From positions 186,001 to 250,000 of the forward strand of contig NZ_JAMOIM010000006.1 of assembly GCF_026130545.1 (NCBI RefSeq): a stretch of DNA of 64,000 nucleotides. The letters are read 5' to 3'. Under the pieces are notes generated by a model. It did not search any database. It was not told the origin of the DNA and saw nothing but the letters and a program-made list of their open reading frames with translations. Shown piece after piece: positions 20,398-29,643 of this stretch. The stretch is from Lichenifustis flavocetrariae. Lineage in GTDB: Bacteria > Pseudomonadota > Alphaproteobacteria > Rhizobiales > Beijerinckiaceae. Both the position numbers and the translations under genes were made by a program. The stretch's first letter is position 1; every line of letters begins with the position of its first letter.

Positions 20398-21876
20398 TTG
20401 CCCTTGTCCCTTCCCCGCTTCCGTCTCGCTCCCGACATCGACACGAGCCGCATCATCACCGGCCTGTGGCAGGTCGCCGACCAGGAACGGGACGGGCGGA
20501 CGCTCGATCGGGCGAAAGGCGCCGATGCGCTCGCGGCCTATGCGTCCGACGGATTCGACACGTTCGACATGGCGGACCACTACGGCAGCGCCGAATTGAT
20601 CGCGGGCGCGCTTCTGAGCCGCTTCGCGCCGGATGATCCGGCACGGCCTCGCGCCTTCACCAAATGGTGTCCGAAACCCGGGCCTATGACCCGGGAAGTC
20701 GTGCGGGACGGCATCGATCTCGCGCGCTCGCGGCTCGGAATCGGCAAGATCGACCTCCTGCAGTTCCACTGGTGGACCTTCGAGCATCTCGCCTATCTCG
20801 ATGCCGCGAAGGAACTCGCGGCCGCCCAGCGGGACGGTCTCGTGGGGCATCTCGGCGTCACCAATTTTGACGTGGGCCACCTGCGCGTCCTGCTGAAGCA
20901 CGGCGTGCCGGTGCTCACCAATCAGGTGTCCTTCTCGCTGCTCGATCGGCGCGCCGCCGGCGAGATGAGCACCTTCTGCATCCGCAACGGGGTGAAGCTC
21001 CTGGCCTATGGGACGCTGGCGGGCGGCCTGCTTTCGGAACGTTGGCTCGGCGTGCCGGAACCGGGTGCGGACGAGATCGCGGACTGGAGCAAATCGAAAT
21101 ACAAGCGCTTCATCGATGCGCTCGGCGGCTGGGCCGTATTCCAGACGATCCTCACGGCCGTGCAGGCCGTGGCGGTCCGGCACGGCGTGTCGATCGCCAA
21201 TGTGGCGACCCGGTGGGTGCTGGATCATCCGGCCGTCGCGGCCGTGATCGTGGGTGCGCGGCTCGGCGAGGCGGAGCATCGCGCCGACAACAGCCGTACC
21301 TTCGGTTTTACGCTCGATGCGGTGGACCGGGCCGGGATCGACGCCGCCTTGGCGCGAGCCACCCCGATCCCGGGCGATTGCGGCGACGAATACCGCCGCC
21401 CCCCCTTTCTTACCGCCTCAGGTGACCTCAGCCACCACCTCGCGGCCGTGCCACGTTATTTTCAGGCTACACCAATCGAGGGGCGGCCGAACCGGGCCCA
21501 GGTTGATTCGGGCAGCGTCTGGGAGCCGATCGCCGGCTATTCGCGCGCGGTCAGGGTTGGTGACCGAGTGCTGGTGAGCGGGACGACCGCCACGCATGGA
21601 GTGGGCGAGACGGTATGCCCCAACGACCCCGCGGGACAGACCACCTTCATCCTCGACAAGATCGCCGCCAGCCTCGCGGCGCTCGACGCCACCATGGCGG
21701 ATGTGGTGCGCACTCGGATCTACCTGCGCGATGCGAACCACTGGGAGGCTGTCTCCCGCGCCCATGGGCAGGTCTTCGGCGCGATCCGTCCCGCCAATAC
21801 GCTGTTGGAAGTGGGGCGGCTCGTAGGAGATTATCTTGTCGAGATCGAAGCCGAGGCCGTCGTCGGCGGGATTTGA
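20398..21876 (+). CDS. aldo/keto reductase fused to a RidA/YjgF domain
   Basis: A 492-residue fusion. Residues ~10-330 are an aldo/keto reductase with the AKR tetrad visible (Asp and Tyr in DMADHYG, Lys in FTKWCPK, His in LQFHWW) and the late NADPH-binding SIANVATRWVLDHP / VIVGAR region. Residues ~365-490 are a RidA-like domain (VRVGDRVLVSGTTA, MADVVRTRIYLRD, LVEIEAEAV). The catalytic arginine of true RidA (R105 of E. coli, in PARS) is replaced by N467 (PANT), so enamine/imine deaminase activity is doubtful. The start is TTG at 20398. Substrate unknown. Confidence 0.85.
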   Translation: MPLSLPRFRLAPDIDTSRIITGLWQVADQERDGRTLDRAKGADALAAYASDGFDTFDMADHYGSAELIAGALLSRFAPDDPARPRAFTKWCPKPGPMTREVVRDGIDLARSRLGIGKIDLLQFHWWTFEHLAYLDAAKELAAAQRDGLVGHLGVTNFDVGHLRVLLKHGVPVLTNQVSFSLLDRRAAGEMSTFCIRNGVKLLAYGTLAGGLLSERWLGVPEPGADEIADWSKSKYKRFIDALGGWAVFQTILTAVQAVAVRHGVSIANVATRWVLDHPAVAAVIVGARLGEAEHRADNSRTFGFTLDAVDRAGIDAALARATPIPGDCGDEYRRPPFLTASGDLSHHLAAVPRYFQATPIEGRPNRAQVDSGSVWEPIAGYSRAVRVGDRVLVSGTTATHGVGETVCPNDPAGQTTFILDKIAASLAALDATMADVVRTRIYLRDANHWEAVSRAHGQVFGAIRPANTLLEVGRLVGDYLVEIEAEAVVGGI

Positions 21877-24104: not shown

Positions 24105-25151
24105 TCAGGCGGCCTTTAAGGTTGCGGCGGGTTTCAACACCGCTTCAGTGATGACGCGGTCGTCTTCCAGGCTCCGGAGCGGGGCAATGCCCTGGGTCTG
24201 CAAGGCACCATGGTAGGCCCGCACGGCTTCTTCGGGGGCGATCGTGCCGTCGGCCACTTGGCGCATCAGTTCGAGCAGGGTCTTGGGGGCCTCGGCAAGA
24301 TTGATCTTGCGGCCGAACAGGGCCACGCGCGCCCCATATTTCTCGGCTTGATGCAGCAATTCGAACGTGTCGCGCGTGGTGCCCGCACCGCCGCCGAGCA
24401 CGCCGACCACGAGGGTCGAATCGAAACTCGCCAGCTCTTCGAGCGCCTTCGGACCGTTATAGACGATCTTCAGGAACTCGGGCCGGTCCTCGACGTTGAC
24501 GCCCGCGAGGCACCGCAGGATGCTGTCGTTGACGAACTCGCCGAGCTGTTCGCGGCTCATGCCCGTCTCGACATTCGGGTTGAAGACTTCGAAGAAATAT
24601 TTGAATTCGTTGGCGGCCGCCTCGGCCCGGAATGCCGAAAACCGTTCCTGCGCCATGATGTCGATGTCGAAGTCGTTCATGAAGGTCACGGAATAGAGCC
24701 CCAGGTCCGTTCCCTTGATGGGCGCACCGGGTTGCGGCGTCGCGGTGCCGTAGCGCACGCGTGACAGGTTCGCGGTGCGGAACGGATAGGACGGCTTCTT
24801 GTGATAGGCGCCGTGACGCACGGCGGACCAGCAGTCGGTCGTGTCATTCGCCCGGATGGCGGGCTTCACTGCACTGTCCTTGAACGCCCCGCGCTGATGC
24901 AGCAGGTCGAGGTTCGAGGCCGAGACCAGCATGATGTCGACCACGTCGTGGGCGATGATGCCGGCGATCTCGTCAATGAATTCCTGGCGGTTGCGAAGGC
25001 GGCGCGACGTCCCGTCCGGGCTCCGCACGAAGCCGAGATTCGCGGCGCCCGATCCCATATCGGCATCCTTGGCATCGGCGATGATGAAGTCCGAGCGCTT
25101 GTAACGCCCCGCTCGAATATTCCCGAGCTTCGTATCCATGCGTGTGGTCAT
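24105..25151 (-). CDS. class I aldolase-like protein (DeoC/LacD/FbaB superfamily)
   Basis: A 348-residue TIM-barrel protein. The probable Schiff-base lysine is K228 in PEFLKIVYNGP, followed by VVGVLGGGAGTTRDTFELL and ARVALFGRKIN, the phosphate-binding end of DhnA/LacD-type aldolases. It therefore probably cleaves a phosphorylated keto-sugar, but substrate and stereochemistry are unknown. The start at 25151 has GAGGAAACG upstream. It is the last gene of the carbohydrate cluster, with its own 100-base promoter region after the DeoR regulator, where repeats at 25219-25236 may serve as operator. Confidence 0.75.
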   Translation of the reverse strand: MTTRMDTKLGNIRAGRYKRSDFIIADAKDADMGSGAANLGFVRSPDGTSRRLRNRQEFIDEIAGIIAHDVVDIMLVSASNLDLLHQRGAFKDSAVKPAIRANDTTDCWSAVRHGAYHKKPSYPFRTANLSRVRYGTATPQPGAPIKGTDLGLYSVTFMNDFDIDIMAQERFSAFRAEAAANEFKYFFEVFNPNVETGMSREQLGEFVNDSILRCLAGVNVEDRPEFLKIVYNGPKALEELASFDSTLVVGVLGGGAGTTRDTFELLHQAEKYGARVALFGRKINLAEAPKTLLELMRQVADGTIAPEEAVRAYHGALQTQGIAPLRSLEDDRVITEAVLKPAATLKAA

Positions 25152-25218
25152 CGTTTCCTCGCGCGTTATCGCTGGTCGCGGAGCCGCTCGCAGACGACCC
25201 TGCCTCGCTCTCATTACA

Positions 25219-25236
25219 TTCCAAAATCTTCCAAAT
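25219..25236. promoter_or_regulatory. tandem TTCCAAA repeats, candidate operator of the DeoR-type regulator
   Basis: TTCCAAAAT at 25219 and TTCCAAAT at 25229 are direct repeats exactly 10 bases apart, within an AT-rich segment between the aldolase start and the end of the deoR-like gene. Repeats on one face of the helix are a usual arrangement for DeoR-family repressors. Binding is inferred from position only. Confidence 0.35.
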
Positions 25237-25251
25237 CAATACCAATCATGC

Positions 25252-26073
25252 TCAACCGAATGATGCGGTGCCGCGGACCGGCACGACCGTGACCTTCGGG
25301 TGAAGCGCATGCAGCGCCGCGAGCTGTTCGGCGTCGAGCCCGTCGTCGGTGATCACCTCGTCGATCGCCGACAGGTCGCAGAAGGTCGCGAAAGCGGGTT
25401 GGGTGAATTTGGAACTGTCGACCAGCAGGATCTTGCGTCGGGCAGAACCGATCATGGCGCGTTTCAATGCCGCGACTTCGAGCGAAGCGTCGGTCAGGAT
25501 GGCGCCCGTGACCGCATAGGCCCCCGTGAAGCACACATCCGCGTGGACCGTGTCGAAGAAGCTCTGCCCGGGCTCGCCCGCCAGCGCATTGGTGCCCGGC
25601 CGGATCGTGCCGCCGGGCATGATCACCCGCCAGTTCGGCACGCTGGCGCAAAGCTGGGCGATGTCGAGGCTGTTGGTGACGACCGTCAGGCTGAGGTCGC
25701 GCATGATCGCCGCCCGGACCGCCTCGGTCACCGTGGAAGAGCTTTCGAAGATCACGCTCTCGCGCGGGTTCAACCGCAGCGCCGCCTCGGCCCCGATTGC
25801 GATCTTCTCGGCTCGCCGGATATGGGCATTGATGGAAGGCTCGCGCTCGAAGGTGGCCTGCAGCGGCGGCACCAGAAGGGCGCCGCCGTGGGTCCGTTCG
25901 AGATAACCGCCCTCGACCAGATGTTCGAGGTCGCGCCGCACAGTCGACTGCGAGCCCCCGATGGCCTCGGAGAGTTCGGCGATCGATGCCGCCCCGTTGA
26001 CGCGCAGATGTTCGAGGATCAGGGCGCGGCGCTTGGCCGGGATGATCTCGACGCGTTTGGTCGGGGCGTTCAT
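25252..26073 (-). CDS. DeoR-family transcriptional regulator
   Basis: A 273-residue regulator. The N-terminal helix-turn-helix is at residues ~15-65 (IAELSEAIGGSQSTVRRDLEHL followed by a wing ending ERTHGGA). The C-terminal DeoR sensor domain (residues ~85-255) has the ISE-fold landmarks VIFESSSTVTEAV, LTVVTNSLDIAQL and ILLVDSSKF, which bind sugar phosphates. It sits inside the kinase/SDR/aldolase cluster and probably represses it until a phosphorylated intermediate accumulates. Confidence 0.92.
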   Translation of the reverse strand: MNAPTKRVEIIPAKRRALILEHLRVNGAASIAELSEAIGGSQSTVRRDLEHLVEGGYLERTHGGALLVPPLQATFEREPSINAHIRRAEKIAIGAEAALRLNPRESVIFESSSTVTEAVRAAIMRDLSLTVVTNSLDIAQLCASVPNWRVIMPGGTIRPGTNALAGEPGQSFFDTVHADVCFTGAYAVTGAILTDASLEVAALKRAMIGSARRKILLVDSSKFTQPAFATFCDLSAIDEVITDDGLDAEQLAALHALHPKVTVVPVRGTASFG

Positions 26074-26145
26074 GTCTGGGGTTCCGGTGGCTTCCTGTCA
26101 TCCATGAAGCCGAACCGGCGGCCGTCGTGCAAGTTGGATGGGCGG

Positions 26146-26916
26146 TTACCAGATCGTATAGCCGCAATCGACGAGCATCAGGGACCCCGTCATGGCGCTG
26201 GAGGCGTCGCAAGCCAGGAACAGGATGGCGGAGGCGATCTCGTCCGCGGTGGCGACCCGCTTCATCGGCGTCATCTCCATCCAAGTCTTGAACATCGGCT
26301 GGTCGAAGCCGCCGCGCGACATGACTGTGTCGACATAGGTGGGCGCCACCGTATTGACCCGGACGCCGCGCTCGGCCCACTCGCCGGCGAGCGAGCGGGT
26401 GAGATGGTGCACGCCGGCCTTGGCGGCATTGTAGTGCGCCTGCCGCTGCGGCTTGTTCGAAATCAATCCCGACATGGAGCCGATCGTGATGATCGATCCG
26501 CGCCCGCGTTCGAGCATCGGCCGGCCGAATTCCCGGCAGGACCAATAGACCCCGTTCAGATCGACGTCGACGACCTTGCGCCAGACGTCGTCCGGCATGG
26601 CTTCGCCCGGCGTGTCGGGCCAGGCAATGCCGGCATTGGCCACCAGGATGTCGACTCCGCCATGCCGGCGGTTCGCCTCTTCGGCCGCGCGCCCGACGGC
26701 ATCGGGCTTGGTCACGTCGAGAATGACGGCATCGACCTGCCGGCCCTTGGCGGCGAGCTCCGCGCGGCCGGCCTCGAGGATCGATGCGTCATGGTCCGAA
26801 ATGACCACGTTGGCGCCGGCCTCGATCAGCGCCTCGGCGGCGGCAAGGCCAATACCGCGCCCACCCCCGGTGATAAAGGCCGTCCGGCCGTCGAGCTTGT
26901 ATTTGTCGAGATACAT
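26146..26916 (-). CDS. SDR-family polyol/sugar dehydrogenase
   Basis: A 256-residue classical short-chain dehydrogenase. NAD(P) binding: TGGGRGIG near residue 16; NAG at VANAGIAWP; catalytic Tyr/Lys in HYNAAKAG. The acidic residue after the second strand (ISDHDAS) suggests NAD+ preference. Placed between an ABC binding protein and a DeoR regulator, it probably oxidises an imported polyol or sugar to the keto form. The C-terminal MLVDCGYTIW resembles sorbitol/xylitol/arabinitol dehydrogenases. Confidence 0.9.
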   Translation of the reverse strand: MYLDKYKLDGRTAFITGGGRGIGLAAAEALIEAGANVVISDHDASILEAGRAELAAKGRQVDAVILDVTKPDAVGRAAEEANRRHGGVDILVANAGIAWPDTPGEAMPDDVWRKVVDVDLNGVYWSCREFGRPMLERGRGSIITIGSMSGLISNKPQRQAHYNAAKAGVHHLTRSLAGEWAERGVRVNTVAPTYVDTVMSRGGFDQPMFKTWMEMTPMKRVATADEIASAILFLACDASSAMTGSLMLVDCGYTIW

Positions 26917-26993
26917 GGGTCGTTCCCCGTTTGATGCGATCGCGACGGGCTGGGAAAGCCCGCCGCAGGCTCGTGGTCTGTCGGTTCGCTCCG

Positions 26994-28310
26994 TCAGGGC
27001 TTCGGATAGCCGGCCTGGCGGATGGCGCGCTCGGTGGTGGCCTGCGCTTCGGCCAGCCCCTGGTCAATCGTCTTCTGGCCCGCGATGACGGCCGAGAATG
27101 TCTGCCCGACAGCCGTGCCGATGTTTTGGAACTCAGGGATCCCGACAAACGAAATGCCCGTATAGGGCACCTTCTCCTGTGTGGAATCATGCATGTTGGC
27201 GGTCTCGATCGTGGCCAGCGTCAAGGGCGCGAAGGGGGCCGCGTCGAGATAGGCCTTGTTGTCATAGGTCGATTTGCGCGTGCCTGGCGGCACGCTGGCC
27301 CAGCCGTTCTCCTTGGCCACGAGGGCGATGTATTCGGGCGAGGTCGCCCAATAGACGAAACTCTTGGCCGCCTCGGGGGCCTTGGAGGAGGTCGGCACCG
27401 CCAGGGCCCAGGCCCACAGGTAATGATTGCCCTTGTCGAATTTACCAACCGGCGGATGCGCATAGCCGACCTTGTCGGCCACCTTGCTCTCCTTCGGGTT
27501 GGTCAGGAAGCCGGCCGATACCGTTGCGTCGACCCACATCCCACACTTGCCCGAGGCGAACAGCGCCAAGGTCTCGTTATATCCATTGGCCGCCGCACCG
27601 GGTGGTCCGTAGTCCTTGAGCAAGGTGACGTAGGTGGTCAACGCGTCTTTCCAAGCCGGCTTGTCGAGCTGGGCCTTCCAATCCATGTCGAACCAGCGAC
27701 CGCCGTAGCTATTCACCACGGGACTGATCTGGCCCATATTCTCGCCCCAGCCGGGCTTGCCACGCAGGCAGACGCCATAGACGCCATGCGTCGGGTCGTT
27801 GATGGCTTTGGCGAAGTCGCCGATCTGTGCCCAGGTCGGCTGATCCGGCATGGTCAGACCGGCCTTCTCAAAAAGATCCTTCCGGTAGAAGGTCATCTGG
27901 CTCTCCGCATAGAACGGCAGAGCGTAGAGTTTGCCGTTGACGGACAGGCCATCGCGCACGGACTGCAGGACGTCGTCGAGTTTATAATCGGCCGGAACAT
28001 TCGTGAAGGGCACGAGCCAGTCCTGCTTGCCCCACAGCGGCGCCTCGAACAGGCCGATCGTCATCACGTCATATTGGCCGCCATGCGTGGCGATATCGGT
28101 GGTGAGCCTTTGACGCAGGACGTTTTCCTCCAGCGTCACCCAGTTGAGCTTGATGTCCGGATGGGCCGCCTCGAAGGTCTTTGAAAGTTTCTGCATCACG
28201 ATCATGTCGTTGTTGTTGACGGTCGCGATGGTCAGTTTTGTTTCGGCCATGGCAGGGCCGGTCGAAAGGGCGACAACAAGCGCCCCCAGGGTGATCCCGA
28301 GTTGTTTCAT
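26994..28310 (-). CDS. ABC transporter sugar/polyol-binding protein (family 1)
   Basis: A 438-residue periplasmic binding protein of the SBP_bac_1 family, close in type to SmoE/MtlE polyol binders. The signal peptide is MKQLGITLGALVVALSTGP ending AMA|ETKLT. The mature start TIATVNNNDMIVMQKLSKTF and the domains with YDVMTIGLFEAPLWG and YALPFYAESQMTFYRKDL are typical. Start 28310 is preferred over 28313 since GGAGGAA is then 2 to 7 bases upstream. The matching permeases and ATPase are missing from the cluster. Confidence 0.9.
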   Translation of the reverse strand: MKQLGITLGALVVALSTGPAMAETKLTIATVNNNDMIVMQKLSKTFEAAHPDIKLNWVTLEENVLRQRLTTDIATHGGQYDVMTIGLFEAPLWGKQDWLVPFTNVPADYKLDDVLQSVRDGLSVNGKLYALPFYAESQMTFYRKDLFEKAGLTMPDQPTWAQIGDFAKAINDPTHGVYGVCLRGKPGWGENMGQISPVVNSYGGRWFDMDWKAQLDKPAWKDALTTYVTLLKDYGPPGAAANGYNETLALFASGKCGMWVDATVSAGFLTNPKESKVADKVGYAHPPVGKFDKGNHYLWAWALAVPTSSKAPEAAKSFVYWATSPEYIALVAKENGWASVPPGTRKSTYDNKAYLDAAPFAPLTLATIETANMHDSTQEKVPYTGISFVGIPEFQNIGTAVGQTFSAVIAGQKTIDQGLAEAQATTERAIRQAGYPKP

Positions 28311-28374
28311 CATTTCCTCCCGTTTCGCCGGATCTCCGGCGGCTCGACGGACTTGGCGTCCGCTCTTGGACGGG

Positions 28375-29643
28375 TCAGGCGGTTGCCCGATCCCGCTTTT
28401 CCTCTGCAGCCCGCTCCTGGCCCAAAGCCAGCAAGCAGCCTGCGGTGAAGGTGTCGCCGAGCCCGAGTGTGGTGAGCGGGCGCTCCAGATAAGGTGACGC
28501 GCAGGCCACGGCCTGCCACTCGCCGTGCCGCGCATGTTCGGGCATCGGTAGATCGTGGAAGCGGGCGGACGGGCCCAGCGCACTGGGAAGCACCGGCTTG
28601 CCGGCCTCTGCCCTGGCGCTCGCCAGAAGACAGCCGGTCATGAGCGCCTGCATTTCGACGTCGGGATCCCGCTTCGTCACGGCCGCCGCCCAATGATCGG
28701 CGTGAACGCAGACGCGGTCGAAACCGGTGCGCTCGCCGAGCCGCCTCATGGCAGCGGCCGGGTCGCCGTCTCGTCCGTCGATCGCGATCAGTTCCGAATG
28801 GCTCATGCCGACGGATGTCGCGACGCCACGGCTGGAGGCAAGCACACGTTCGACGAGGTCGAGGCTATCATAACCCGCGAGTTCGAGATGAATGGTCTGT
28901 AGGCCGGCGGCGCGCCAACGGCGCCCGAGCGCCATGGTCCGGGCGAGTTCGCGGTCGAGATCATCCGCCGGTACTGCGCTGTAGCCGGACAGAAGCCCGG
29001 CACCGGCCTGGGGGGCGAGCGACGGGGTCAGCGCGTCGAAGTCGGGATCGTCTTCGAGGCCGAGATTGTGGAACCTTACGATGATGCGGGACGAACGGCG
29101 GGGAATCAGAGGTCCCACAGCCCGCCCCGCGGTATATTCAAAGATGAAGATCGCCGGACGTCGAACGCCGCGCGGCGCTACTTCCGCTGCAAGGCCGATC
29201 CGGCCGCCCTCGGCCAGCAGAATGCCGGGTGGCACGTGTTCCAGCATGAAGGACGATCGGTCGCCCAGGCAGAGCAGCGCCGGCGCCCCGAGCGTCGAGA
29301 GCACCCAGGCGGCATGCGGACCCGTGCCACCCAGTGAGGTCACCATCGGGACATGGGTGGCAAGCCAGCCTGGACCCTCCGGCCAGTCGACCGCGACCTC
29401 ACCACCGACGCCCGCTTCGGCCCGCCCGAGCAGAAGCGCCGCGAAGGCGGCCGCATGTGGGTCGGATGCGTCCAGCAGGGCCTGCATGTCATGCATCGAC
29501 ACGCGAGCGTCGATGCAGGCACCCAAACCGCAAAAGGTCAGAGGCGCCGCAGCCGCCGCTTCAGGCAGCGCCGCAATGCACGCGTCATATCGCGATGCCC
29601 AGACATTCGGAGCAACCATCGAGTTCCGCCCAAATCGCGTCAT
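28375..29643 (-). CDS. ADP-dependent phosphofructokinase/glucokinase-like sugar kinase
   Basis: A 422-residue protein resembling the ADP-specific PFK/GK family (ribokinase fold), best known from archaea. Landmarks are TFCGLGACIDA near residue 36, SLGGTGPHAAWVLSTLG (103-119), the HxE motif in IHLELAG (252-254) and the catalytic-base loop GLGDTF with D397, the counterpart of GAGD in PfkB kinases. It would phosphorylate a sugar in the cytoplasm, possibly using ADP. The start is ATG 29643; ATG 29619 is possible and better spaced from a GCGGAA. It is the first gene of the minus-strand catabolic cluster. Confidence 0.75.
   Translation of the reverse strand: MTRFGRNSMVAPNVWASRYDACIAALPEAAAAAPLTFCGLGACIDARVSMHDMQALLDASDPHAAAFAALLLGRAEAGVGGEVAVDWPEGPGWLATHVPMVTSLGGTGPHAAWVLSTLGAPALLCLGDRSSFMLEHVPPGILLAEGGRIGLAAEVAPRGVRRPAIFIFEYTAGRAVGPLIPRRSSRIIVRFHNLGLEDDPDFDALTPSLAPQAGAGLLSGYSAVPADDLDRELARTMALGRRWRAAGLQTIHLELAGYDSLDLVERVLASSRGVATSVGMSHSELIAIDGRDGDPAAAMRRLGERTGFDRVCVHADHWAAAVTKRDPDVEMQALMTGCLLASARAEAGKPVLPSALGPSARFHDLPMPEHARHGEWQAVACASPYLERPLTTLGLGDTFTAGCLLALGQERAAEEKRDRATA

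Follow-up and report, generated by a model that had tools for sequence, protein, structure and literature searches.

Based on profile, residue-level and comparative genomic evidence, we describe a five-gene cluster of Lichenifustis flavocetrariae (contig NZ_JAMOIM010000006.1) in which a divergent sugar kinase of the ADP-dependent phosphofructokinase/glucokinase (ADP-PFK/GK) family, known mainly from archaea, is encoded together with a class I aldolase-like protein whose family has no name. The cluster occupies positions 24105-29643 of the 64,000-nucleotide stretch analysed here (hereafter the window), and the pairing of its kinase and aldolase genes is conserved beyond chance in other genomes, a conclusion that is well supported. 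We propose, at a probability of about one in two, that the encoded proteins would convert a hexitol into a ketose, which would be phosphorylated, probably at C1, and then cleaved to dihydroxyacetone phosphate and an aldehyde. All component proteins belong to known superfamilies. The initial annotation, made from the sequence of the window alone, recognised no named pathway in this cluster; likewise, we found no description of the kinase-aldolase module or of the aldolase family in the literature searched, the coverage of which lacks most subscription journals.

The five minus-strand genes announced by that annotation are all present and every reading frame is intact. Their order, previously given as binding protein, short-chain dehydrogenase (SDR), kinase, aldolase and DeoR regulator, has to be corrected: transcription runs from the kinase through the solute-binding protein, the SDR and the DeoR regulator to the aldolase. 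The intergenic gaps are about 60-100 bp, so that a single transcript is likely. In order of transcription, the cluster comprises:

28375..29643, minus strand: sugar kinase of the ADP-PFK/GK family, 422 aa (PF04587; family profile against 1ua4; invariant residues)
26994..28313, minus strand: ABC solute-binding protein, 439 aa, of the hexitol type by similarity (PF01547; 4rya, E=1.1e-168)
26146..26916, minus strand: SDR, probable polyol dehydrogenase, 256 aa (PF13561; 3awd, 2wdz)
25252..26073, minus strand: DeoR-family regulator, 273 aa (PF00455 and PF08220)
24105..25151, minus strand: class I aldolase-like protein of an unnamed family, 348 aa, with candidate Schiff-base Lys228 (K228 in 31/31 relatives; ADH-synthase model matched by 29/31)

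The aldolase frame is open as far as 25214, and the numbering of K228 follows the 348-residue reading.

Conservation of the kinase-aldolase pairing

A search of the order with the window kinase returned 20 places in 15 of 297 genomes, and the same search of plasmid records returned 9 of 72,556. The order includes Pleomorphomonas: L036, a locus from the order sample, corresponds to locus L028 of Pleomorphomonas sp. SM30, with a glucosidase gene that is 100% identical and matching identities in the other genes. Flanks were examined for the 19 places outside the window and for six of the nine plasmid records, that is, all but H4 and H5 (further Agrobacterium plasmids) and H6 (Rhizobium leguminosarum); in the H6 record about 0.5 kb separates the kinase match from the aldolase match. 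The initial annotation had suggested looking for conserved co-occurrence of the five genes; for kinase and aldolase we observed such an association: 18 of the 20 kinase places are within 3.5 kb of an aldolase gene, which belongs to the window family in 13 cases and to the LacD/YihT type in five. The exceptions are L034, considered below, and the second kinase of G641 (L047). When all 29 kinase places of the examined loci are counted, near-duplicates included, 26 are within 3.5 kb of an aldolase gene (20 window-type and six LacD/YihT-type). A third exception, in a Streptomycetaceae plasmid (L033, 6761-10969), is a distant kinase relative whose neighbours include a class II aldolase/adducin gene and an annotated 2-dehydropantoate 2-reductase gene. 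Across 16 loci, the pairwise distances of kinases and aldolases are correlated (r=0.86; none of 5000 permutations as high), to which shared ancestry contributes.

Two loci, L038 and L039, carry two paralogous ADP-type kinases in one cluster, one adjoining a window-type aldolase and the other a LacD/YihT-type aldolase. In a sample of the phylum, the kinase profile found relatives in at least 2 of 398 genomes, with a maximum of four candidates scored per genome. A scan of viral contigs (query A2) gave no confirmed relative, so that viral carriage is not backed.

A divergent ADP-PFK/GK-type kinase

The placement of the window kinase as a divergent member of the ADP-PFK/GK family, rather than of PfkB, is well supported by sequence comparison and bears out the initial annotation. 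The protein scores 56.6 bits against PF04587, above the gathering cut-off of 27; this is its only Pfam match at E up to 0.01, and PF00294 (PfkB) is not matched. A profile built from 23 kinase relatives retrieves 14 solved ADP-glucokinase/ADP-phosphofructokinase sequences, the best being 1ua4 (E=1.7e-24). The first 13 Foldseek hits of a predicted model (predicted local distance difference test, pLDDT, 41) are all ADP-dependent sugar kinases; both structure predictions of this study, for the kinase and for the aldolase, were made from three-row alignments and are poor models, so that their Foldseek results count as weak support.

The two motifs that had been read from the sequence are in place, GLGDTF at 394-399 and HLE at 252-254, and the corresponding GXGD catalytic and HXE motifs are present in all 23 aligned kinases. 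D45, GG 105-106, H252, E254, E284 and D397 are invariant in the same alignment. D45 aligns with D36 of AncMsPFK, given as a sugar-contacting aspartate in PMC7948494. With residue roles taken from the same source, R186 (kept in 22/23) aligns with the arginine that touches the beta-phosphate of ADP in ADP-dependent enzymes, and E82 (also 22/23) has as its counterpart the glutamate of glucokinases and bifunctional enzymes. The glutamate of the N/DXXE metal motif is present in 23/23, its first residue being Asn in seven relatives and Ser in 16, the window kinase among the latter. The lysine that binds the phosphate of fructose 6-phosphate in ADP-PFKs (K179 of AncMsPFK) is absent from the aligned column in 23/23; a lysine one position earlier, found in part of the family, could stand in for it. 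Judged from these aligned residues, the acceptor site resembles that of glucokinases apart from a single PFK trait (R190, see below). The phosphate donor may be ADP.

The window kinase thus shares with the archaeal ADP-glucokinases/phosphofructokinases (PF04587; 1ua4, 1u2x, 5od2) the Pfam family, the GXGD and HXE motifs, the ADP-phosphate arginine and the sugar-contacting aspartate. It differs from them in reading GGT instead of GGQ, in the missing fructose 6-phosphate lysine, in the replacement of the NXXE Asn by Ser and in its location in an aldolase operon. A class-wide search with PF04587 gave matches in 5 of 385 genomes, and the four besides that of L. flavocetrariae hold strong canonical members. 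Four alphaproteobacterial genomes of 1.5-2.3 Mb (L004-L007) have ADP-PFK/GK proteins of the canonical kind (232-262 bits), which stand apart from the window subfamily. Apparent kinase fusions, suggested by open frames of 724-1048 aa in relatives, were rejected: starts near the homologous start give proteins of about 405-450 aa, or a shorter one of 349 aa in L031.

An aldolase-like protein outside the named families

The window aldolase appears, from profiles and a predicted model, to be a class I aldolase-like protein near the DhnA/LsrF/LacD enzymes and outside any named family. It has no Pfam match, and 16 family members gave only stray weak matches at E up to 1. At an E limit of 0.1, the NCBIfam model for ADH synthase (NF005556) is matched by 29 of 31 members (best E 2.2e-9), the LsrF model by 25/31 and the archaeal class I fructose-bisphosphate aldolase model by 16/31. 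The window protein itself scores far below the cut-offs of these curated models, with 18.1 bits against 241 in the case of NF005556. Searched against the PDB, the profile of the 31 members finds LsrF at E=0.0049; matches above E 0.2 include unrelated proteins. All 50 listed Foldseek hits of the model (pLDDT 43) fall in the ADH-synthase, LsrF, YihT, LacD and fructose-bisphosphate aldolase groups (best E=1.6e-6), and K228, invariant in all 31 aligned aldolases, lies on a predicted strand (226-229); in the DhnA-type enzymes the Schiff-base lysine sits in the sixth strand of a TIM barrel. The initial annotation had placed the protein in an unassigned DeoC/LacD-type branch with K228 as the Schiff-base residue. 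This lysine is a conserved candidate for the role; the branch needs correction, the protein being nearer by curated models to ADH synthase and LsrF than to LacD, and PF01791 (DeoC/LacD) being matched neither by the window protein nor by any of the 16 members (E up to 1).

With the DhnA-type class I aldolases (LsrF, MJ0400 ADH synthase and archaeal class I fructose-bisphosphate aldolase) the window protein has in common the sub-threshold model matches, the Foldseek hits and the invariant lysine on a predicted strand, but it lacks a Pfam match, is longer and shows only about 10-14% identity in Foldseek alignments. The LacD/YihT/sulfohexulose-1-phosphate aldolases (PF01791) take the place of the window protein next to this kinase in other loci and are among its Foldseek hits, but beyond its failure to match PF01791, LacD was rejected as a close relative at a profile-profile probability of 0.1.

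The aldolase is commoner than the kinase: it was found in 38 of the 297 genomes of the order (two by partial matches only), in 47 plasmid records and, with a profile, in 34 of the 398 genomes of the phylum sample, full-length in four and as short C-terminal matches in 30. We examined 28 aldolase loci without the ADP-type kinase, which were picked by hand and are not a random sample. A PfkB kinase is encoded within 1 kb of the aldolase in 16 of them, and within 120 bp in 15 of these. Three others (L100, L101, L105) combine the aldolase with an FGGY kinase and an oxidase similar to glycerol-3-phosphate dehydrogenase (GlpD), four offer an FGGY kinase alone, at a distance of up to 6.4 kb (L081, L082, L084, L089), and one has DhaK and DhaL (L106), while no kinase of the searched types was found in four (L080, L085, L086, L087). 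In three genomes of one genus (L085, L086, L087), the sole partner of the aldolase (73-74% identical) is a DeoR gene (76-77% identical). L. flavocetrariae itself has a second aldolase copy on contig C90 (L099, 7974-10059), which adjoins a PfkB kinase gene and has genes for a ribose-type binding protein and a permease close by. We tentatively suggest, with more reserve than for the route itself, that these proteins form a family, so far without a name, of class I aldolases acting on ketose 1-phosphates, with copies in Hyphomicrobiales, Lichenicola and Vibrio. It would be the hub of a modular, fructolysis-like route for hexitols in which the kinase step is swapped (ADP-type, PfkB, or FGGY with a polyol-phosphate oxidase) and in which the role of the ADP-PFK/GK enzyme would be catabolic and non-glycolytic.

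Proposed route and its alternatives

The solute-binding protein is 60% identical (253/419) to 4rya, a structure deposited under the name 'ABC transporter substrate binding protein (Sorbitol)' and reportedly solved with mannitol. The best solved matches of the SDR are the putative polyol dehydrogenase 3awd (E=4.7e-78) and the galactitol dehydrogenase 2wdz (E=1.1e-59). Together, these similarities suggest that a hexitol is oxidised to a ketohexose. In the proposed route, the binding protein would capture a hexitol, for example sorbitol, mannitol, galactitol or a similar compound, the membrane part of the transporter being supplied in trans or having been lost, and the SDR would oxidise this hexitol to a ketohexose. 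The kinase would then phosphorylate the ketose, C1 being the most likely position and ADP a plausible donor, and the aldolase would split the ketose 1-phosphate via a Schiff base on Lys228 into dihydroxyacetone phosphate and a free aldehyde (glyceraldehyde in the case of a hexose), the operon being presumably regulated by the DeoR protein. Substrate, phosphorylation position, phosphate donor, aldol products and regulation are thus what we infer from sequence comparison. Phosphorylation at C1 is suggested by the partner swaps, above all by the LacD/YihT-type aldolase found at 6 of the 29 kinase places, whose best solved match (8tnf, E=1.2e-53) is titled sulfohexulose-1-phosphate aldolase. The loci with an FGGY kinase and a GlpD-like oxidase point in the same direction, as these two enzymes would turn a polyol into a ketose 1-phosphate. 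Also in favour of the proposed route, the kinase has the glutamate typical of glucokinases (E82) and not the fructose 6-phosphate lysine of ADP-PFKs, and several kinase loci contain no FGGY kinase in the stretches examined. On account of 8tnf, a sulfo-sugar substrate was also considered for the LacD/YihT-type sister loci.

The smo sorbitol/mannitol route of Sinorhizobium meliloti is reminiscent of this arrangement in its polyol ABC transporter, polyol dehydrogenase and DeoR-type regulator (PMC10433430). There, fructose is converted to fructose 6-phosphate by the kinase Frk, and neither an ADP-type kinase nor an aldolase appears in the part of that account consulted. The window cluster differs in lacking a complete ABC transporter, as it has no permease, and in having a kinase of another family than that of the fructokinase step.

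Several observations weigh against the proposed route. The cluster has no permease, and the gap between the binding protein and SDR genes (26917-26993) is only 77 bp. L034 (G432), whose kinase, binding protein, SDR and DeoR genes are the closest to those of the window, has no aldolase in the 20 kb examined, its aldolase being elsewhere in the genome. K228 is one residue off the lysine of LsrF in the LsrF alignment. Finally, R190 of the kinase aligns, in the PDB alignment, with R212 of ADP-PFKs, a PFK-like feature, and FGGY kinases occur near some kinase-aldolase pairs, for instance in L028, L030, L037 and L149, as would be needed if two phosphates were added before cleavage. In this latter alternative, an FGGY or housekeeping kinase would phosphorylate the ketose at C6 (or C5), the ADP-type kinase would add the C1 phosphate in the manner of an ADP-phosphofructokinase and the aldolase would cleave the bisphosphate as LacD does. 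FGGY kinases are also near the pair in L002, L035, L036, L042 and L043, and the LacD/YihT-type aldolase resembles tagatose-1,6-bisphosphate aldolases as well (E about 1e-28). We nevertheless consider this scheme unlikely: the lysine for the phosphate of fructose 6-phosphate is absent from its aligned column in all 23 kinases compared, the examined stretches of L029, L034, L040, L041, L044, L045, L047 and L048 contain no FGGY match, and three aldolase loci have an FGGY kinase and an oxidase with no second kinase of the searched types. There is a sizeable, though minority, chance that the pathway is as proposed but that ATP, or some other donor than ADP, serves the kinase; only the donor is at issue here, so that this reading overlaps with the C1 route. 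The distance of the subfamily from characterised ADP-dependent enzymes and the Ser of its NXXE motif would speak for such a change, while the conserved beta-phosphate arginine (R186), the HXE motif and the catalytic Asp speak against it.

The aldolase-like protein might also carry out other carbon-carbon chemistry, of the transaldolase or thiolase type as in ADH synthase and LsrF, rather than a simple release of dihydroxyacetone phosphate. Its nearest curated models are indeed those two enzymes and not fructose-bisphosphate aldolase, but the replacement of the window-type protein by a LacD/YihT-type aldolase, the solved relatives of which are named ketose-phosphate aldolases, suggests the same reaction class for both, and we regard this alternative as improbable. 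That the operon is a partly decayed remnant, which has lost its permeases and no longer supports growth on its substrate, seems to us very improbable. The relatives L029 and L034 have two permeases between the binding protein and SDR genes, unlike the window, whose five frames are nonetheless intact, with their motif residues retained. A search of the genome for permeases gave 29 places, none of them on the contig of the window; on contig C21, a binding protein 60% identical to that of the window is encoded with two permeases and an ATPase, and the membrane part could be provided in trans by this related complete transporter. The sequence of import, oxidation, phosphorylation and cleavage outlined by the initial annotation fits the nearest solved relatives, except that import cannot be completed by the cluster alone because the permeases are missing.

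The proposed hexitol route offers a concrete pathway for two groups of proteins which, in Rhizobium, Sinorhizobium, Agrobacterium and their relatives, carry the public annotation 'hypothetical protein' or 'ADP-dependent glucokinase/phosphofructokinase'. If it is correct, ADP-type sugar kinases have been recruited outside central glycolysis, the aldolases constitute a new family with a possible use in synthesis, and the occurrence of unrelated kinases in one slot beside the same aldolase is explained.

Surroundings of the cluster

No promoter-like site was found in the cluster region, and terminator-like sites number two, against a mean of 4.0 in shuffled sequence. A lytic transglycosylase gene lies upstream of the cluster. 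Elsewhere in the window, an aldo/keto reductase domain (PF00248) and a RidA-type domain (PF01042) are encoded in a single frame on the plus strand (20398-21876).

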